Assembly: GCA_016550415.1 (NCBI GenBank)
Contig: JABXGU010000845.1
Location: forward strand, 1 to 11,165
DNA length: 11,165 bases
Source of the DNA: an archaeon
GTDB lineage: Archaea; Asgardarchaeota; Hermodarchaeia; Hermodarchaeales; Hermodarchaeaceae
Direction: 5' to 3'
The notes under the pieces were generated by a model. The model saw only the letters and a program-made list of their open reading frames with translations, ran no database searches and was not told the origin of the DNA. The translations under genes and the position numbers were made by a program. Positions 2,672 to 11,165 of the stretch are shown in pieces. Every line of letters begins with the position of its first letter. Position 1 is the first letter of the stretch.

Positions 2672-2720
2672 CCTTCATCTTCAGGCTTTCATTGAAAGAA
2701 ATAATTGGCACTATTGAATT

Positions 2721-2725
2721 GGTGA
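2721..2725 (+). promoter_or_regulatory. Ribosome binding site that decides the start of the small membrane protein
   Basis: GGTGA sits 5 bases before the ATG at 2731. The same core precedes three of the four genes at the right end of the window. It argues for 2731 over the in-frame TTG at 2692, which has no such site, although the TTG lies about where transcription would begin and a leaderless start there remains possible. Confidence 0.5.
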
Positions 2726-2730
2726 AGCAT

Positions 2731-3165
2731 ATGAATGGAGAGGAACTCCCTCTAATTAGTGAGATGATTGAAGGGAGCCCGGAACGCTCTATGCGTGAAC
2801 CTACCTTCGCATTATTCTCTGGTATCATTAACTTGCTTTACTCTTGGTGGCAATATCAAACAATACTTACACTGTTTAGCTATCTTGGATCTTATTTAGG
2901 AATTTTTTATGATCTAATCATTGAGATTTATTGGGCAATGCTAGTCGTTGGCATTTTCTGCGGCTTCATGATTCTACTTGGAGGACTAATGATGTTTGTG
3001 TTCAAGCCAAAGGCTGGCGGCGTCTTCACACTTATATTCTCAGTTTTGACTCTCATGTTGGGCATTGGATTTTTTGTAGGTCCTCTCCTTGGCATTGTGG
3101 GGGGTGCCCTAGCAGTTCAGCAAAAGAAGCTTCCTGAGCCTGGCGACTCCACTGAAATAATCTAA
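2731..3165 (+). CDS. Small four-helix membrane protein, DUF4064-like, function unknown
   Basis: I do not recognise a characterised family. With the ATG at 2731 the protein has 144 residues; an in-frame TTG at 2692 would add 13. After a polar, acidic N-terminus (residues 1-20) come hydrophobic stretches at about 25-40, 45-66, 68-91 and 97-129, so three or four membrane helices. The last part has a Gly-rich pattern, FKPKAGGVFTLIFSVL followed by GPLLGIVGGALAV, resembling DUF4064-type and other small archaeal membrane proteins whose final helices describe a GGxL motif. The C-terminus is short and polar (KKLPEPGDSTEII). It is divergent from the ABC permease and convergent with the creatininase-family gene, 12 bases away. 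A link to the transporter is possible from the shared promoter region but is not shown. The ribosome binding site GGTGA supports the chosen start. Confidence 0.72.
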   Translation: MNGEELPLISEMIEGSPERSMREPTFALFSGIINLLYSWWQYQTILTLFSYLGSYLGIFYDLIIEIYWAMLVVGIFCGFMILLGGLMMFVFKPKAGGVFTLIFSVLTLMLGIGFFVGPLLGIVGGALAVQQKKLPEPGDSTEII

Positions 3166-5298: not shown

Positions 5299-5326
5299 AT
5301 ACTGACACCTGCATCAGCATCAACAT
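5291..5326 (-). other. Possible 11-codon methionine-rich upstream frame overlapping the ahcY start
   Basis: On the minus strand an ATG at 5326 opens a short frame reading MLMLMQVSVFD, whose TGA stop overlaps the second and third codons of ahcY in another frame. Three of the first five residues are Met, which is notable in front of a methionine-cycle gene, but the run comes from a short ATGCTG repeat. The spacing of any ribosome binding site (GGAG, two bases before the ATG) is too short, so translation is doubtful. Confidence 0.15.
5306..5310 (-). promoter_or_regulatory. Ribosome binding site of ahcY supporting a TTG start
   Basis: AGGTG on the minus strand ends seven bases before the TTG at 5298. 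No in-frame ATG lies nearby that would give a family-like N-terminus, and the translated start (MTDFKVRDLGLANQG) matches the usual beginning of the enzyme. Confidence 0.5.
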
Positions 5327-5373
5327 TTCTCCACTTAAGCATTTCACCACTTTTCAGAGGGGAAAAAGGATGG

Positions 5374-5380
5374 TATATTA
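5374..5380 (-). promoter_or_regulatory. Possible TATA box of ahcY
   Basis: TAATATA on the minus strand lies ~80 bases before the ahcY TTG. A transcript start ~25 bases downstream would fall near 5350, giving a leader of about 50 bases that includes the AGGTG site. It lies in the 212-base divergent region shared with fpg, which otherwise shows only AT-rich sequence and no obvious hairpin or known riboswitch. Confidence 0.35.
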
Positions 5381-5453
5381 GAAACGAAATCTAGGCATAA
5401 TTTAGTGATAACTGGTTTTCATAGCCATTGTCTTTAATAGAAAAAAGCAATAC

Positions 5454-5462
5454 CGTTTAAGA
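5454..5462 (+). promoter_or_regulatory. Possible TATA box of fpg
   Basis: The stretch around CCGTTTAAGAAACC contains TTTAA preceded by purine-rich sequence (GAAAAAAGC), as in archaeal BRE/TATA pairs. A transcript start ~25 bases downstream near 5484 would leave a ~27-base leader with the AGAGGA site before the ATG at 5511. An alternative AT-rich site, AAATATGAAATATT, lies at ~5481-5494. Confidence 0.25.
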
Positions 5463-5498
5463 AACCAAACTTGCTAATACAAATATGAAATATTGACT

Positions 5499-5504
5499 AG
5501 AGGA
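5499..5504 (+). promoter_or_regulatory. Ribosome binding site that fixes the fpg start at 5511
   Basis: AGAGGA ends six bases before the ATG at 5511. A TTG further upstream (5493) is in frame, but starting there would bury the catalytic N-terminal proline, and this site lies inside that extension. Confidence 0.65.
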
Positions 5505-5510
5505 CGTAAT

Positions 5511-6323
5511 ATGCCGGAACTCCCAGATTTAGAAGTTACAAAGCATGTACTCAACCGGCGTATTGCCAACAGCACTACAGAAAAAGTTGAACTCCTCGAT
5601 CCTATTGTGCTTCGTCGACCAACCGCTGAAATTTTCCAACGGGAATTACTCAACCAAACCCTAAAGGAGGTTCAACGATATGGCAAGTTCCTTATTCTCA
5701 AATTCACTCCTTCCAATCGGTTAATAATTAATCCTATGCTTGCTGGGGTCCTAACTCTTCAGCCTCCATCAGATCGGATTCTGCGAAGGACTGGATTTCG
5801 GCTAAGTCTATCCAATGGTCTTGACCTTCGTTATCACGATAAAAAGCGCATGGGCAAGGTCTATCTACTTCTTGGCGATGAAACCACAGCCCTAATACCC
5901 ACCTTTAATGAGCAGGGTCCAGATGCCCTTGACTCATCTCTAACACAAGATGTGTTTCTGAAGCGTATCCGCAAATTCCATGCCATGATTAAACATGTGC
6001 TTCTAAATCAGCGGTTTATTGCTGGACTTGGCAATGCATATGCAGATGAAATCCTATTTGTTGCCCATATTAACCCATTTCGAAAACGCAGAACCCTAGC
6101 ACCTGAAGAAATCACATCATTATATCAATCCATGTTAATTGTCCTCCGTAATGCAATCTCGACCATCGCAGCACGTGCAGGTGAACATCCTCCTGCAAAG
6201 ATTCGTGATTTTCTGCAAATCCACGGGAAAGGTGGAGAACCCTGTCCTTCATGCGGGACAGTAATTTCGTCGGTGAAATCAGGCATCCGAATAGCCAACT
6301 TTTGCAGACATTGCCAACAGTAA
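5511..6323 (+). CDS. mutM: Formamidopyrimidine-DNA glycosylase (Fpg/MutM/Nei family)
   Basis: A base-excision repair glycosylase/AP lyase that removes oxidised bases such as 8-oxoguanine or FapyG. The start at 5511 gives MPELPDLEV, exposing Pro2 (the Schiff-base nucleophile after Met removal) and Glu3. K59 in QRYGKFLIL matches the conserved hairpin lysine. GLGNAYADEILFVAHINP (172-189) and KIRDFLQIHGKGGEPC (230-245) form the helix-two-turn-helix region. The C-terminal zinc finger is CPSCG...SGIRIANFCRHCQ (C245, C248, C265, C268) with R260 as the DNA-binding arginine. At 270 residues it is full length. Oddly, the usual HLGMTG becomes NPMLAG (75-80) and DPRRFG becomes DKKRMG (110-115), so the Met, Arg and Phe that normally fill the base gap read Leu77, Lys112 and Met114. 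All catalytic residues are kept, so it is probably active, with possibly different specificity. It is divergent from ahcY. Confidence 0.93.
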   Translation: MPELPDLEVTKHVLNRRIANSTTEKVELLDPIVLRRPTAEIFQRELLNQTLKEVQRYGKFLILKFTPSNRLIINPMLAGVLTLQPPSDRILRRTGFRLSLSNGLDLRYHDKKRMGKVYLLLGDETTALIPTFNEQGPDALDSSLTQDVFLKRIRKFHAMIKHVLLNQRFIAGLGNAYADEILFVAHINPFRKRRTLAPEEITSLYQSMLIVLRNAISTIAARAGEHPPAKIRDFLQIHGKGGEPCPSCGTVISSVKSGIRIANFCRHCQQ

Positions 6324-6422: not shown

Positions 6423-7811
6423 ATGGTTCTCTTCGGCATTTGGCTAATCGATTCAACAAGTGGTCTTCCACTAGCGTATACTACAACTCCTGGCTTCAAC
6501 ATCAATGCTGACCTCTTCTCTGGTTTCATCACAGCATCTCATGACTTTGCACATGAGGCTTCTGGCGGAACACTAGAAACGATCGCCCTTGGGAATTTTA
6601 AATTAATAATTCGTCGTAGTCCACTCGCATTGAAGGTTCTGGCTGTGGGTGCTAACGATCCAGAAACACGCTATTTACGCTTCTTTCAAGATCTTGAGGA
6701 ACGAATAAGTCCGATTCTTGTTCCCGTTCATAAGCGCCCAGAAGGTCTATCTGGCGTTCCAGGTTCGCTTCGGAAACGTTTGGAGGAAGTTATTTCAATT
6801 GAACTTGAAGCTTTTTCCACCCGCAAGGCGCCCTCTGACCTTAGTGAATTGTCGGTTCTCAGTGAAGAACCAGCAAGGCTCCTGCTCCAAGCCCTTATAG
6901 AAAGGAAGGGTGTTCAGCTTGTACCTGAACCTTCTACAACTGGTGAATGTTATTCATATCCTCTTGCAGAATCAATTACTGGACTATCGGATGAGGAGAC
7001 CGTAAAATTACTTGACCGATTAGCTGAATATGGCCTTTTACTCACCGAACCTATGGATACCTCTCTTAGTTGTCCTAATTGCAGTTCTCTAAACCTTCAC
7101 CCACGTCTTCTCTGTCCATCATGCAAAACACCTGCACAACCCGTTTCTCTCTATGAGCATCTTACATGCGGCCATATTGGTATCAGACCTCCTGATGGTG
7201 AACAACTTAAGTGTTCAATTTGTAAGGATACTAAGTATAGTGCCCAGGAATTCCGATTATTTCTTGGCTTTCAATGTTCTTCCTGTAACTCATTCTTTAA
7301 AACACCGAGCTTAATCTTCGTATGTCATAGTTGTAGAGAAAGCCTTGAACCTGAAAAAGCAAGTGTCAAGGTTCTCTCAAAATACCTGTTGAATCCTGCT
7401 TTGGTCTCCGAACTTGACACTCTTCTAAAAGCTAGTAGACCATCAGGTGGAATTATGGCGCGCCTTAAAGCAAAGCTTAGCGCTACTTCACAAACTGAAC
7501 CTTCTGATGAAGATGAATCTCCTATTACTCCTGAAAAGCCAATTGAAGTAATGGAGAGAGAGGAACCTTCAGTTGTTACTGTAACCCCTGAAAGAATAAT
7601 AAGTGAAGAGAAAATCGAGGCTTCATCACCTGTTCACTCTACTGCTTCTTCTACTATTGGAGACGATGAAGCTGCCATTTTACAGGAATTAGAGGAATTA
7701 GATAAGGCTCTCAAAAATAACAAGATATCAGAAGGAGAATATGACCGTAGCTTTGTGCGTCTCCGCCTTAAGCTTCGGGTTCTTCGTACCCAATCTGCTG
7801 ATGGCAAATAA
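6423..7811 (+). CDS. Multidomain protein: longin-like domain, winged-helix-like region, three zinc ribbons, SHOCT-like tail
   Basis: I know no characterised protein with this layout. Residues 1-100 start directly with two strands (FGIWLIDSTSGLPLAYT), then a helix (NADLFSGFITASHDFAHE), three strands (LETIALGNFKLIIRR, ALKVLAVG) and a helix (RYLRFFQDLEERI), the order expected of a longin fold as used in membrane-traffic and small-GTPase regulation. Residues ~145-210 look like a winged helix. Three paired zinc sites follow: C217/C220 with C231/C234; C249/H251 with C264/C267; C285/C288 with C301/C304. The segment from YEHLTCGHIG to the last pair resembles TackOD1, an archaeal output domain; that match is from memory. 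Residues ~355-412 are acidic, Ser/Thr/Pro-rich and probably disordered. Residues 414-452 (ILQELEELDKALKNNKISEG...) resemble a SHOCT helical hairpin. No membrane segment is seen, so it is probably a cytosolic scaffold or regulator. The ATG is the first start after an in-frame stop. It follows fpg by 99 bases. Confidence 0.85.
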   Translation: MVLFGIWLIDSTSGLPLAYTTTPGFNINADLFSGFITASHDFAHEASGGTLETIALGNFKLIIRRSPLALKVLAVGANDPETRYLRFFQDLEERISPILVPVHKRPEGLSGVPGSLRKRLEEVISIELEAFSTRKAPSDLSELSVLSEEPARLLLQALIERKGVQLVPEPSTTGECYSYPLAESITGLSDEETVKLLDRLAEYGLLLTEPMDTSLSCPNCSSLNLHPRLLCPSCKTPAQPVSLYEHLTCGHIGIRPPDGEQLKCSICKDTKYSAQEFRLFLGFQCSSCNSFFKTPSLIFVCHSCRESLEPEKASVKVLSKYLLNPALVSELDTLLKASRPSGGIMARLKAKLSATSQTEPSDEDESPITPEKPIEVMEREEPSVVTVTPERIISEEKIEASSPVHSTASSTIGDDEAAILQELEELDKALKNNKISEGEYDRSFVRLRLKLRVLRTQSADGK

Positions 7812-7825
7812 CTGCTTTGTGCCCT

Positions 7826-7838
7826 GTTTTTTATATAC
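7826..7838 (+). terminator. Possible T-rich terminator after the longin-like multidomain gene
   Basis: The sequence TGTTTTTTATATA begins 14 bases after the stop of the multidomain protein. Archaeal RNA polymerase ends at T-rich runs in the non-template strand without needing a hairpin. The ensuing ~100 bases carry a new leader for the next gene, which supports a transcription boundary here. Confidence 0.35.
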
Positions 7839-7839
7839 G

Positions 7840-7895
7840 AGGGGGGCATTAAAATAGAACCTTGAAACTCCGCATAACAACTTGAAGTCCCCCCT
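7840..7895. repeat. Short inverted repeat AGGGGGG / CCCCCCT
   Basis: AGGGGGG at 7840-7846 and CCCCCCT at 7889-7895 are perfect complements separated by 42 bases, in an otherwise AT-rich gap before the dehydrogenase gene. In RNA this would be a 7-base-pair GC stem with a large loop; in DNA it could be a paired protein-binding site. The role is not known. Confidence 0.3.
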
Positions 7896-7929
7896 TTATC
7901 CTCATACCATTTGAAAATAATCTAGGTAA

Positions 7930-7934
7930 GGTGA
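7930..7934 (+). promoter_or_regulatory. Ribosome binding site supporting the TTG start of the dehydrogenase
   Basis: AAGGTGA, with its GGTGA core here, lies six bases before the TTG at 7941. The dinucleotide-binding motif begins within ten residues of this start, as expected for the family, so no upstream extension is needed. The TTTATC at 7895-7900 could act as a TATA box for this gene, with a ~19-base leader. Confidence 0.6.
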
Positions 7935-7940
7935 AGCAAA

Positions 7941-8792
7941 TTGACTATTTCAAGAATCGCCGTTATTGGTGCAGGCGCCATGGGATCTGGAATCGCCTAT
8001 CAAGCCGCACGCTACGGAATTGAAGTTAATCTAAATGACATTAAACAAGAATACCTTGACAAAGGCATGAGCGGCATCAAGAACATGGTAAGAACCGGCG
8101 TTGATAAGGGCAAAATCGCCTTAAAAGATGCCAAAGAACTCCTTGATCGTATTCATCCCGTTCTTGACCTTGCTGAAAGTGTCAAAGATGTCGATCTTGT
8201 CGTCGAAGCAATTTTTGAAAACATGAAAGTCAAAAAGGAACTCTTTGCCAAAATAGAGGATGCCGCCAAACCAGAGACTATCTTTGCCTCTAACACATCC
8301 TCCCTTAGCATCAGTGAAATTGCTACCGCTACAAAGCGTCCTGATAAGGTTGTTGGTACTCATTTCTTCAATCCCGTTTACACAATGAAACTAGTTGAAA
8401 TTGTAGTTGGCAAGGAAACCTCTAATGAGACAGTCGAGGCAGCTATCGAGTTTTCTAAGCAACTACAAAAAACACCGGTCAAGGTGAAGGATTCACCTGG
8501 TTTCATCGTTAACCGAATTCTCATCCCAGTTCTATCGGAAGCTGTTAAAATACTTCAGGAAGGCTTAGCCACACGAGAAGACATCGATACCGCTATGACA
8601 CTCGGTGCTAACTTTCCCGCAGGTCCACTCCAGCTAGCTGATTTCGTGGGATTGGACATCGCAAAAGCGACAGCTGACACCTTGGCAGCAGGACTGGGTG
8701 ATTGCTATGCACCACCCAAGCTGTTAGTGGAAAAGGTGGAAAAAGGCGAACTCGGTATGAAATCTGGTAAAGGTTTCTTCGAATACACATAA
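7941..8792 (+). CDS. 3-hydroxyacyl-CoA (probably 3-hydroxybutyryl-CoA) dehydrogenase
   Basis: A cytosolic enzyme that oxidises (S)-3-hydroxyacyl-CoA to 3-oxoacyl-CoA, or the reverse. The 283 residues match the stand-alone Hbd/PaaH length. The N-terminal Rossmann loop is GAGAMGSG (10-17), and D33 at the end of the second strand favours NAD over NADP. Catalytic residues are in place: S120 (SNTSSLSI), H141 with E153 (GTHFFNPVYTMKLVEIV), and N191 (PGFIVNRI). The C-terminal helical dimerisation domain holds GPLQLADFVGLD and ends with the usual GMKSGKGFFEY. The start is TTG with a GGTGA site. An enoyl-CoA hydratase follows 37 bases downstream, then a thiolase, so it likely works in a butyryl-/crotonyl-CoA to acetyl-CoA route. 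Substrate chain length cannot be set by motif; C4 is inferred from the compact, single-domain form. Confidence 0.94.
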   Translation: MTISRIAVIGAGAMGSGIAYQAARYGIEVNLNDIKQEYLDKGMSGIKNMVRTGVDKGKIALKDAKELLDRIHPVLDLAESVKDVDLVVEAIFENMKVKKELFAKIEDAAKPETIFASNTSSLSISEIATATKRPDKVVGTHFFNPVYTMKLVEIVVGKETSNETVEAAIEFSKQLQKTPVKVKDSPGFIVNRILIPVLSEAVKILQEGLATREDIDTAMTLGANFPAGPLQLADFVGLDIAKATADTLAAGLGDCYAPPKLLVEKVEKGELGMKSGKGFFEYT

Positions 8793-8811
8793 CCCCTGAA
8801 TTATGAACAAC

Positions 8812-8818
8812 AAGGAGG
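8812..8818 (+). promoter_or_regulatory. Ribosome binding site that favours the enoyl-CoA hydratase start at 8830
   Basis: AAGGAGG lies 11 bases before the ATG at 8830, and sits inside the coding sequence if the in-frame ATG at 8803 were used. The extension it would add (MNNKEEYNK) is polar and not family-like. The spacing is slightly long, so 8803 cannot be fully excluded. Confidence 0.5.
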
Positions 8819-8829
8819 AATACAACAAA

Positions 8830-9633
8830 ATGGAAACTCTCACGTACGGTGTCGAGGGTCATTTCCTTGCTGATACTGAGCAAATAGGTGTTATCACCCT
8901 CAACCGTGCTGCAAAACTCAACTCTATTAACCCGAAATTAGTTGAAGAATTCAATGAGCTCCTCGATAAAATCGAGAAAGATAACAACGTTCGTGTCGTC
9001 ATTATTCGATCAGCCTCAGAGAAAGCATTCTCTGTAGGAGCAGATCTCTCAGCTGCTGCCCAGCTGGCACAAGACTTGGAGAAAGGTCGTAAGTTTCTAG
9101 CTGCGGGGCAAGCATTGTTCAGGCGTATCGAAAGTTTTCCTAAGCCTGTTATCGCTGAAATTAATGCCCTTACTTTAGGTGGCGGATTGGAGATGGCAAT
9201 GGCTTGCGACATCCGAATAGCTTCAAAGGATGCAAAACTTGGTAATCCCGAAGTTAAGCTAGGTCTTCTTCCCGCGTGGGGTGGAACCCAGCGTATGCCA
9301 AAGATAATCGGGCTTGGCAAGGCAAAGGAACTCATACTCACAGGGAAGGATATCCCTGCAGAGGAAGCCTACCAATACGGTCTCGTAAATAAGGTGGTTG
9401 AACCTGACGAACTTCACTCTGAAACTCTTTTCATAGCTCAGCAAATAGCTGATAATGCCCCCATTGCAGTCGCATTATCAAAAGAGACACTGAACATGGC
9501 ACTATCAGTGCCAATAGAAAAAGGCAATGAAGCTGAACTCGAAGCCTGTATCAAATGCTTCCAAACTGAAGATATAGCCATCGGCATTTCCGCTGTGTTC
9601 TCCAAATCCAAAGCCAAATTCAAAGGCAAATAA
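8830..9633 (+). CDS. Enoyl-CoA hydratase (crotonase family)
   Basis: This enzyme adds water to trans-2-enoyl-CoA to give (S)-3-hydroxyacyl-CoA, the substrate of the dehydrogenase encoded just upstream. The 267 residues have the crotonase fold markers: VGVI-type start strand with TLNRAAKLNSI (23-33), the first oxyanion segment AFSVGADL (66-73), and ALTLGGGLEMAMACDIRIA (113-131). Both catalytic glutamates of true hydratases are present, E121 (GGGLEMA) and E141 (LGNPEVKLGLLPAWGGTQR), which argues against isomerase-only or dehalogenase relatives. The C-terminus GISAVFSKSKAKFKGK fits the usual GxxAFxxKRxPxFxG end. It is likely cotranscribed with the dehydrogenase (37-base gap). A 112-base gap with no clear hairpin separates it from the thiolase. 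Confidence 0.94.
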   Translation: METLTYGVEGHFLADTEQIGVITLNRAAKLNSINPKLVEEFNELLDKIEKDNNVRVVIIRSASEKAFSVGADLSAAAQLAQDLEKGRKFLAAGQALFRRIESFPKPVIAEINALTLGGGLEMAMACDIRIASKDAKLGNPEVKLGLLPAWGGTQRMPKIIGLGKAKELILTGKDIPAEEAYQYGLVNKVVEPDELHSETLFIAQQIADNAPIAVALSKETLNMALSVPIEKGNEAELEACIKCFQTEDIAIGISAVFSKSKAKFKGK

Positions 9634-9731
9634 GCAGAAATAACTCCTATATCCATCTAACTAAACCATTGAATTGAAAAATACAAAAGATACAATTAAT
9701 GAGAATTGCTAAAAACCTGAAAGAAATTCTT

Positions 9732-9738
9732 GAGGTGA
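9732..9738 (+). promoter_or_regulatory. Ribosome binding site of the thiolase (GTG start)
   Basis: GAGGTGA, a seven-base match to the complement of the 16S rRNA 3' end, ends seven bases before the GTG at 9746. The first residues (MAIPKVAIVGIG) are the normal beginning of this thiolase type. Confidence 0.7.
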
Positions 9739-9745
9739 AAAATAA

Positions 9746-10957
9746 GTGGCAATACCTAAAGTCGCGATTGTTGGCATTGGTCACAGTAAATACGGCAAAC
9801 GCGGCAAAATCATTAACGAAGATATTGAAGGTGAAAAAGCGACCTACCCTGCTGTTACCCTAAGAGAACTCGCCCATGAATCCTATTTCCCAGCCCTCGA
9901 ACATGCAGGAATAACAAACGACGATATCGAATCCTCCGTCATTGGCATCGCAGCTGAAGCCTTTGCAGGGCAAGGAGCTGCAGCAGCCCTTGTTGCTGAC
10001 GAAGTTGGCATTATTGGCAAACCTACTATGCGCGTTGAAACTGCTTGTGCAACAGGATCCACTGCTATCAGAACGGCATGGGCGCAAGTTGCTTCTGGAC
10101 AGTTTGATGTCGTAGCAGCTATCGGCTGCGAAACCATGACTTGGGTCAGTAGCGCCTATGCAACTGAACTCATGTCAGTGGCAGGTGATCATCGCTGGGA
10201 GTATGTTTATGGCATTAGCTTCCCGACATTCTATTCATTATATGCTGCACGAAAAATGGCTGTAGATGGATTGACTCGTGATCAACTATCCATGGTTTCA
10301 ATGAAAAGCCATGAATATGGCTACTACAATAAGCTCGCTCATTTGCGTCGAAAGATTACACTTGATGATGCAAATCAAGCAGTACCGATAGCTATGCCAT
10401 TACGTCTTTATGACTGCTGCTTAATTAGTGATGGTTCAGCTACAGTGATTCTTGCTAACGAAGAAAAGGCTAAAGAAATGTCTAGTGACCCTCTCTGGAT
10501 AACAGGTGTTGGCTGCTCCTCTGATACAATGCGGGTTACTGATCGTCCCAACTTGACTAACATCGGTGGTTCACAACGAGCAGCCAAAATGGCATATAAG
10601 CAAGCTGGAAAAGAACCCAAAGACATTGACGTCGCCTACGTGCACGACTGCTTCAGCATCGCTGAAATCATGGCTTATGAAGACCTTGGATTTTGTGAAC
10701 GGGGGCAAGGTGGAAAATGGATGGAAGATCGTGGATCATACATCGACGGACCTGGCGTTCCTGTCAACGTAGATGGTGGTCTAAAGTCTAAAGGGCATCC
10801 ACTAGGTGCCACAGGAATCGGACAAGTCGTAGATGCCTACAAACAAATCTATAACAAAGTTGAAAAGCAACGGCAAGTCCCCAATGTAAAAGTCGCCCTC
10901 TGCCATAATGTAGGGCAGCACGGACAATTCGCTAATGTTCTAATTTTGGAGCCCTGA
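9746..10957 (+). CDS. Archaeal/SCP2-type thiolase (acetyl-CoA C-acetyltransferase-like)
   Basis: A thiolase that either condenses two acetyl-CoA to acetoacetyl-CoA or cleaves 3-oxoacyl-CoA. The 403 residues include the nucleophile C101 in VETACATGSTAIRTA, the HDCF motif (300-303) typical of SCP2-type and archaeal thiolases in place of NEAF, GHPLGATG with H351, and C386 in ALCHNVGQHGQFANV. The last motif normally reads NxGGxG; here it reads NVGQHG, a Gln in place of a Gly near the active site. Such thiolases in archaea are usually encoded next to a DUF35 OB-fold/zinc-ribbon protein, as here (11-base gap, its ribosome binding site overlapping this stop codon). In methanogens the thiolase, DUF35 protein and HMG-CoA synthase form a channelling complex; no HMG-CoA synthase is in view. 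With dehydrogenase and hydratase upstream, a beta-oxidation or reverse role is likely. Confidence 0.93.
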   Translation: MAIPKVAIVGIGHSKYGKRGKIINEDIEGEKATYPAVTLRELAHESYFPALEHAGITNDDIESSVIGIAAEAFAGQGAAAALVADEVGIIGKPTMRVETACATGSTAIRTAWAQVASGQFDVVAAIGCETMTWVSSAYATELMSVAGDHRWEYVYGISFPTFYSLYAARKMAVDGLTRDQLSMVSMKSHEYGYYNKLAHLRRKITLDDANQAVPIAMPLRLYDCCLISDGSATVILANEEKAKEMSSDPLWITGVGCSSDTMRVTDRPNLTNIGGSQRAAKMAYKQAGKEPKDIDVAYVHDCFSIAEIMAYEDLGFCERGQGGKWMEDRGSYIDGPGVPVNVDGGLKSKGHPLGATGIGQVVDAYKQIYNKVEKQRQVPNVKVALCHNVGQHGQFANVLILEP

Positions 10958-10962
10958 GGTGA
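10956..10962 (+). promoter_or_regulatory. Ribosome binding site of the DUF35 gene, overlapping the thiolase stop codon
   Basis: GAGGTGA shares its first two bases with the thiolase TGA stop and ends six bases before the ATG at 10969. The overlap points to tight translational coupling of thiolase and DUF35 subunits, as expected for partners made together. Confidence 0.7.
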
Positions 10963-10968
10963 GAAACA

Positions 10969-11165
10969 ATGAGTGAATTACAGATGGGTATCGTACACGA
11001 AGTATTTGGAGCAGCAAAACAACGTATGACCGCTGGTTTCCATAAGTTCATTGAAGGCTTAAAAGAAGGAAAATTCCTAACTACGCAGTGTAAGAAATGT
11101 GGTAAGAAGTTCATGCCTCCGCGTTTCAGGTGTCCTTGTGGTGGCACGGAAATGGAATGGTTTGA
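10969..11165 (+). CDS. DUF35 OB-fold / zinc-ribbon acyl-CoA-binding protein (3' end beyond the window)
   Basis: Only the first 65 codons are present. After an N-terminal helical segment (FGAAKQRMTAGFHKFIEGLKEG) comes a rubredoxin-like zinc ribbon with CKKCGKKFMPPRFRCPCGG (41-59): C41 and C44 form the first pair, C55 and C57 the second. The KFMPPR turn and the TEMEW that follows the second pair are hallmarks of the DUF35 N-terminal domain. The second pair is CxC rather than the more usual CxxC. The OB-fold that follows in the family would lie beyond the right edge. DUF35 proteins lend a CoA-binding surface to the thiolase and sometimes to HMG-CoA synthase. The 11-base gap and overlapping ribosome binding site indicate cotranslation with the thiolase. 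Confidence 0.9.
   Translation, partial: MSELQMGIVHEVFGAAKQRMTAGFHKFIEGLKEGKFLTTQCKKCGKKFMPPRFRCPCGGTEMEWF

Follow-up and report, generated by a model that had tools for sequence, protein, structure and literature searches.

A conserved protein of Asgard archaea that joins a longin domain to a TackOD1 zinc module

The window analysed here is the whole 11,165-nt stretch of contig JABXGU010000845.1 (assembly GCA_016550415.1) from an archaeon of the Hermodarchaeaceae, and its subject is one gene encoding a longin domain, a TackOD1 module, a low-complexity linker and a C-terminal helical hairpin in a single chain (Table 1). The open reading frame (ORF) and frame proposed for this gene in an earlier sequence-only reading of the DNA proved correct. 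At least 41 relatives, the window protein itself excluded, were found at E ≤ 1e-3 in a protein search in which the best 7996 candidates were scored, and in the family alignment (42 rows including the window protein) these 41 relatives showed 46-86% identity to it. Third codon positions varied most in all 10 pairwise comparisons among five orthologues, and this excess of third-position differences together with the conserved relatives ruled out a chance ORF. These results demonstrated that the ORF is a conserved gene for an uncharacterised protein of Asgard archaea, in which the longin domain, the complete three-zinc TackOD1 module and the helical C-terminal hairpin are retained together. Some relatives were labelled by their sources as metagenome-assembled genomes of Hermodarchaeia, Promethearchaeota, Odinarchaeota or Thorarchaeota, and names of this kind support the earlier placing of the gene in an archaeon with eukaryote-like trafficking domains. 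One relative was annotated as 'TackOD1 domain-containing metal-binding protein', while the remainder were 'hypothetical protein', unnamed, or carried the JGI names 'uncharacterized OB-fold protein' or 'Fe2+ or Zn2+ uptake regulation protein'. No plasmid relative was found by tblastn, and no transmembrane segment was evident in the window protein on visual inspection.

Table 1. Coordinates in the window of the gene and the parts of its product.
Feature	Position	Strand	Basis
Whole gene, 462-amino-acid (aa) longin-TackOD1-linker-hairpin protein	6423..7811	+	ORF and frame confirmed; full-length matches in 5 genomes
Longin domain, residues 1-137, strand-strand-helix-three strands-two helices	6423..6833	+	predicted structure
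Winged-helix-like N-terminal part of TackOD1, residues 144-216	6852..7070	+	PF18551 match, predicted helices
Three predicted zinc sites of TackOD1 (CPNC/CPSC, HLTC/CSIC, CSSC/CHSC), residues 217-304	7071..7334	+	conserved ligands
Low-complexity linker, residues 340-410	7440..7652	+	pLDDT (predicted local distance difference test) mostly under 50, predicted disordered
C-terminal helical hairpin, weakly GvpG/SHOCT-like, residues 411-462	7653..7808	+	helices 411-431 and 437-461

The predicted secondary structure of the N-terminal domain begins with a strand and runs E3-10, E16-21, H29-47, E53-55, E59-65, E69-76, H81-99 and H114-133 (E, strand; H, helix), and residues 1-137 matched the fold of solved longins across the whole domain, including SNARE longins, AP/COP subunits and the Lokiarchaeal longin structure 8yqg. 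The Roadblock/LC7 fold was ruled out, because no leading helix lies ahead of the first strand in the predicted structure. The earlier preference for a longin over a roadblock, which had been made for residues 1-110, was thus borne out by both the strand-first order and the fold matches. By sequence, no Pfam model matched residues 1-137 at E ≤ 10, and comparison of the family profile with solved structures returned four weak matches (E 0.11-6.7), none of them usable. One relative, L041, exceeded the cut-off of PF19036 Fuz_longin_1 (27.5 vs 26.1 bits), and across 66 columns its group could be aligned to the profile of the window family at 99.4%.

Residues 146-321 matched TackOD1 (PF18551) with 79.6 bits against a cut-off of 32, the sole Pfam match of the window protein above its cut-off, and all 42 family members matched this model at E ≤ 1. 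CxxC motifs begin at residues 217, 231, 264, 285 and 301 and an HxxC motif at H246, and all 12 Cys/His ligands were invariant in the 42 rows; they may pair into putative sites 217/220+231/234, 246/249+264/267 and 285/288+301/304. The preceding winged-helix-like stretch is predicted to have helices at 149-160, 180-186 and 190-202 and a strand at 206-216, and it is acidic, with a net charge (K+R minus D+E) of -8 in the window protein and a family mean of -6.7 (range -10 to -1, 42 rows). The winged-helix-like stretch and the three Cys/His sites described before are therefore present, but they are not separate parts, since both lie within the named family TackOD1. In the available text of PMC5847659, TackOD1 is one of the novel output domains listed for archaeal response regulators; it is described there with five CxxC and one HxxC motifs, and its function is called 'obscure'.

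The linker was variable (mean identity 0.16, 29 rows). Its net charge is -7 in the window protein, as the earlier term 'acidic' implied, but acidity is not a conserved family trait, because the charge spans -19 to +4 in the family (mean -2.7). In comparison, the hairpin formed by the last 52 residues was conserved, with a mean identity of 0.50, and its two predicted helices confirmed the short C-terminal hairpin that had been proposed. The proposed likeness to SHOCT held in part: SHOCT (PF09851) was weakly matched by 32 of 42 members at E ≤ 1 (best 6.2e-4) and GvpG (PF05120) by 41 of 42 (best 4.7e-5), but the window's own tail matched only GvpG, at 23.2 bits and below the cut-off of 30.6, and not SHOCT.

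A search of genome contigs recovered five orthologous loci, four titled Hermodarchaeum/Hermodarchaeota and one 'archaeon isolate H03M_Hermod_104'. Some part of the family profile was matched (E ≤ 0.001) in 124 of 227 genomes searched from the phylum, and full-length matches (profile 1-460) occurred only in the genomes of these five loci (G001-G005), one in each; absence elsewhere is no proof, because metagenome assemblies may lack genes. Seven of the window's other ORFs were scanned with Pfam, and the ORFs of the five loci (L001-L005) were judged by sequence start. The window gene sits between the gene of Fpg and those of 3-hydroxyacyl-CoA dehydrogenase, enoyl-CoA hydratase and thiolase. Downstream, all five orthologous loci carry the dehydrogenase and hydratase genes, and the three reaching that far also a thiolase gene; Fpg precedes in the four that extend far enough upstream. 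Fpg (Formamidopyrimidine-DNA glycosylase; 5493-6323, +) is full length and scored 183.4 bits against an NCBIfam equivalog cut-off of 203.3. The stretch 7941-11163 (+) holds the fatty-acid-type gene row and what looks by eye like the beginning of a zinc-ribbon protein. A small ORF at 2692-3165 (+) gave a sub-cut-off match to DUF6114, and an ORF of similar look lies at 5407-5913 of L005. The interval 5299-5492 lacks the ORF of 255-262 aa that stands between the AdoHcyase and Fpg genes in L001, L002, L003 and L005.

TackOD1 itself is spread more widely, being found above cut-off in 56 of the 227 phylum genomes versus none of 14 control genomes, and it occurs in several architectures, with Lrp/AsnC domains, with a coiled-coil-like N-terminus, or in proteins of about 300 residues. 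At L013:1468-2592 it shares a chain with a helix-turn-helix and a ligand-binding domain of the Lrp/AsnC type, with look-alikes by eye in L023, L029, L031 and L033. At L030:1297-2568 it is preceded by a short, coiled-coil-like N-terminus that gave weak CdvA/GvpG matches and followed by about 170 C-terminal residues that matched no Pfam model. In a tree of 48 TackOD1 rows the window type formed one clade (8 rows, 99/100), and 15 rows of a family of about 306 aa were set apart (100/99), with the L035 row outside them. Deeper forks were open and long branches met, so that the tree gives no demonstration of independent fusion. Comparison of the window longin with the N-domains of two other TackOD1 groups by hhalign found no similarity (E 0.07-0.54), and therefore the fusions were separate or the domains have diverged beyond recognition. 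At L107, near a TackOD1 gene, two longin-helix-turn-helix genes are followed by a MinD/ParA-type ATPase gene (8843-11845), and by eye the genes are arranged alike in L100 and L101. In L107 the TackOD1 and longin genes are separated by a gene (7102-8694, -) for a 531-aa protein that starts with MLEYREFP and ends in an HHH_5 helix-hairpin-helix; ORFs with a similar start were seen by eye in some other loci, e.g. L098-L101.

We consider it about an even chance (probability about 0.5) that the window protein serves Asgard archaea of the Hermodarchaeota type as an adaptor, which signals to a partner of TackOD1 what state a small GTPase or a longin complex is in; as such it may couple GTPase-type switches to other proteins. 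The longin domain would pair with itself or with one of the many other longin proteins in the cell, and the dimer would serve as a platform for a Ras/Rab-like GTPase, by analogy with longin/roadblock dimers, which often interact with small GTPases (PMC10933270, available text). TackOD1, with its acidic winged helix and rigid zinc ribbons, would form the output side and bind a partner protein, which resembles its output position in archaeal response regulators, and the flexible linker and hairpin could allow oligomerisation or reach to a further partner. The link to GTPases is suggested only indirectly, via other TackOD1 lineages. A second TackOD1 group, first seen inside Hermodarchaeota, comprised 61 returned proteins in two subgroups, and in one subgroup the gene lay tail-to-tail with a P-loop ORF in 4/4 loci (L015, L017, L019 and L020). 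This ORF was assigned to the Ras family by Pfam in G005, with PF00071 places in G001, G002, G004 and G005. In G083 a Ras-family ORF lies downstream of TackOD1 on the same strand, the overlap depending on start codon choice. Single adjacencies of this kind can arise by chance, because PF00071 matches so many places per genome (72 in G083 and 20-31 in each of the five Hermodarchaeota genomes, other GTPases included).

Several points weigh against such an adaptor. With a Ras profile built from five Ras ORFs, neither a Ras-like ORF nor a second longin gene was found beside the window gene or its five orthologues (0/6 stretches, flanks of 0.4-10 kb a side), where the neighbours in the window are Fpg and fatty-acid-type enzymes; the GTPase link of the sequence-only reading, which had suggested a search for GTPase genes near orthologues, was thus not supported as stated. 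The sole ORF with the tested P-loop motif in the six stretches, in L005, resembles an ABC ATPase, and among the Ras-model places listed only two fell on contigs of orthologues, both on G005:C10 and more than 40 kb away. Adjacency to a GTPase gene is known from a single set of Hermodarchaeal orthologues and from one further genome, and the second Hermodarchaeal subgroup (L014, L016 and L018) has no P-loop ORF in the stretches read. In the family of about 306 aa a Ras-like ORF occurred in 2 of 37 loci and adjacent in none, by which a general GTPase-neighbour rule was rejected, and these 37 loci, whose synteny is inherited, do not count as independent cases. Furthermore, not every longin binds a GTPase, the placement of domains in the predicted model is uncertain (predicted template modelling score 0.42), and partner and activity of the protein are predicted only.

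It is possible, if doubtful, that the protein instead regulates transcription or RNA, the winged helix and zinc ribbons of TackOD1 binding nucleic acid and the longin acting as a sensor or dimerisation part that reports GTPase or membrane state. Nucleic-acid binding is common among winged helices and zinc ribbons, TackOD1 is an output domain of response regulators (PMC5847659, available text), and the gene stands beside Fpg in the window and the four loci reaching that far; however, the negative charge of the winged helix does not favour nucleic-acid binding, which had been proposed before, and beyond TackOD1 the Pfam matches of the protein stay below their cut-offs. The fusion of TackOD1 to transcription-factor domains in L013, with similar-looking sequences elsewhere, points the same way as this regulator role, but TackOD1 need not bind DNA there, because that protein also has an AsnC helix-turn-helix of its own. 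It is unlikely that the longin is a scaffold that plays no part with GTPases; it would then work as in SNAREs or coat subunits, and the protein would be a structural component of a complex at the membrane, of pilus, secretion or coat-like type, in which TackOD1 acts as a stiff spacer. The fold matches to SNARE longins and AP/COP subunits, the lack of Ras-like ORFs in the six stretches and the presence of arCOG06883 TackOD1 proteins in thaumarchaeal type IV pilus loci (PMC5847659, available text) are consistent with it, whereas no transmembrane segment was evident by eye and the neighbours that were scanned or inspected included no recognisable pilus, coat or SNARE gene. Quite improbable is the broadest proposal, that longin-TackOD1 proteins form a so far unrecognised class of GTPase-coupled regulators found across several lineages of Asgard archaea. 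In this class a Ras/Rag-like GTPase would be read by the longin, either by itself or together with a longin-helix-turn-helix protein encoded next to it, and TackOD1 would act as the output part; with the longin-helix-turn-helix proteins, the class would show that the eukaryotic NPRL2/NPRL3 layout of longin and winged helix was present in archaea before internal membranes.

Asgard archaea are the closest known archaeal relatives of eukaryotes, in which longin domains belong to membrane traffic. They hold many small GTPases and longin/roadblock proteins, yet no internal membrane compartments were seen in the two isolates described in the available text of PMC10933270. A longin that shares one chain with a metal module of known signalling-output type provides named proteins for testing a signalling role of archaeal longins, and a clue to TackOD1, described by its authors as 'obscure' in function; the longin-TackOD1 pairing recurs in a second, widespread family that has longin genes alongside. 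The observation holds up; it offers a useful test case and is moderately surprising.

Comparison with known systems was made against open-licence papers. In the literature so searched no description of a longin joined to TackOD1 and no named family of this architecture were found, in agreement with the earlier statement that no described protein combines these parts; the word 'longin' is absent from the main texts of PMC5847659 and PMC10307638. A category 'NPRL2-like longin domain' in Asgard genomes is mentioned in PMC9834061 and may cover window-type proteins. Eukaryotic NPR2/NPR3 (GATOR1/SEA) have a longin followed by winged helices (PMC3521125, in part), whereas the window protein has three zinc sites and a hairpin in place of further winged helices. 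No NPR2/NPR3 Pfam match was seen for it or the scanned relatives among the matches listed (25 of 51 families family-wide). A fold comparison of the family of about 306 aa did not single out NPRL2, as GATOR1, AP and FLCN-complex rows tied within 1 Z; the best Foldseek match there had E 6.4e-3, none reaching E ≤ 0.001. The Asgard longin multidomain proteins associated with ESCRT (endosomal sorting complex required for transport), proposed to activate small GTPases (PMC10936438, available text, which also mentions HTH (helix-turn-helix)/PCI domains), likewise place a longin inside a modular protein, but they carry Vps28-C and often an adaptin appendage, neither of which the window protein matches in Pfam; VPS28 was weakly matched in 2 of 42 family members (best E 0.069). 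The Asgard longin fusions with GTPase, roadblock and TRAPPC3 domains in PMC10933270 have in common with it the longin fold, an Asgard host and modular fusion, while the available text of that paper holds no fusion to TackOD1 or zinc ribbons and no solved longin structure. The TackOD1, REC-TackOD1 and REC-wHTH-TackOD1 proteins in the available text of PMC5847659 share the identical motif set of five CxxC and one HxxC, and in the window protein a longin takes the N-terminal place, with no receiver domain. The kinds of domain are already known, and the longin-TackOD1 architecture is a new arrangement of them.
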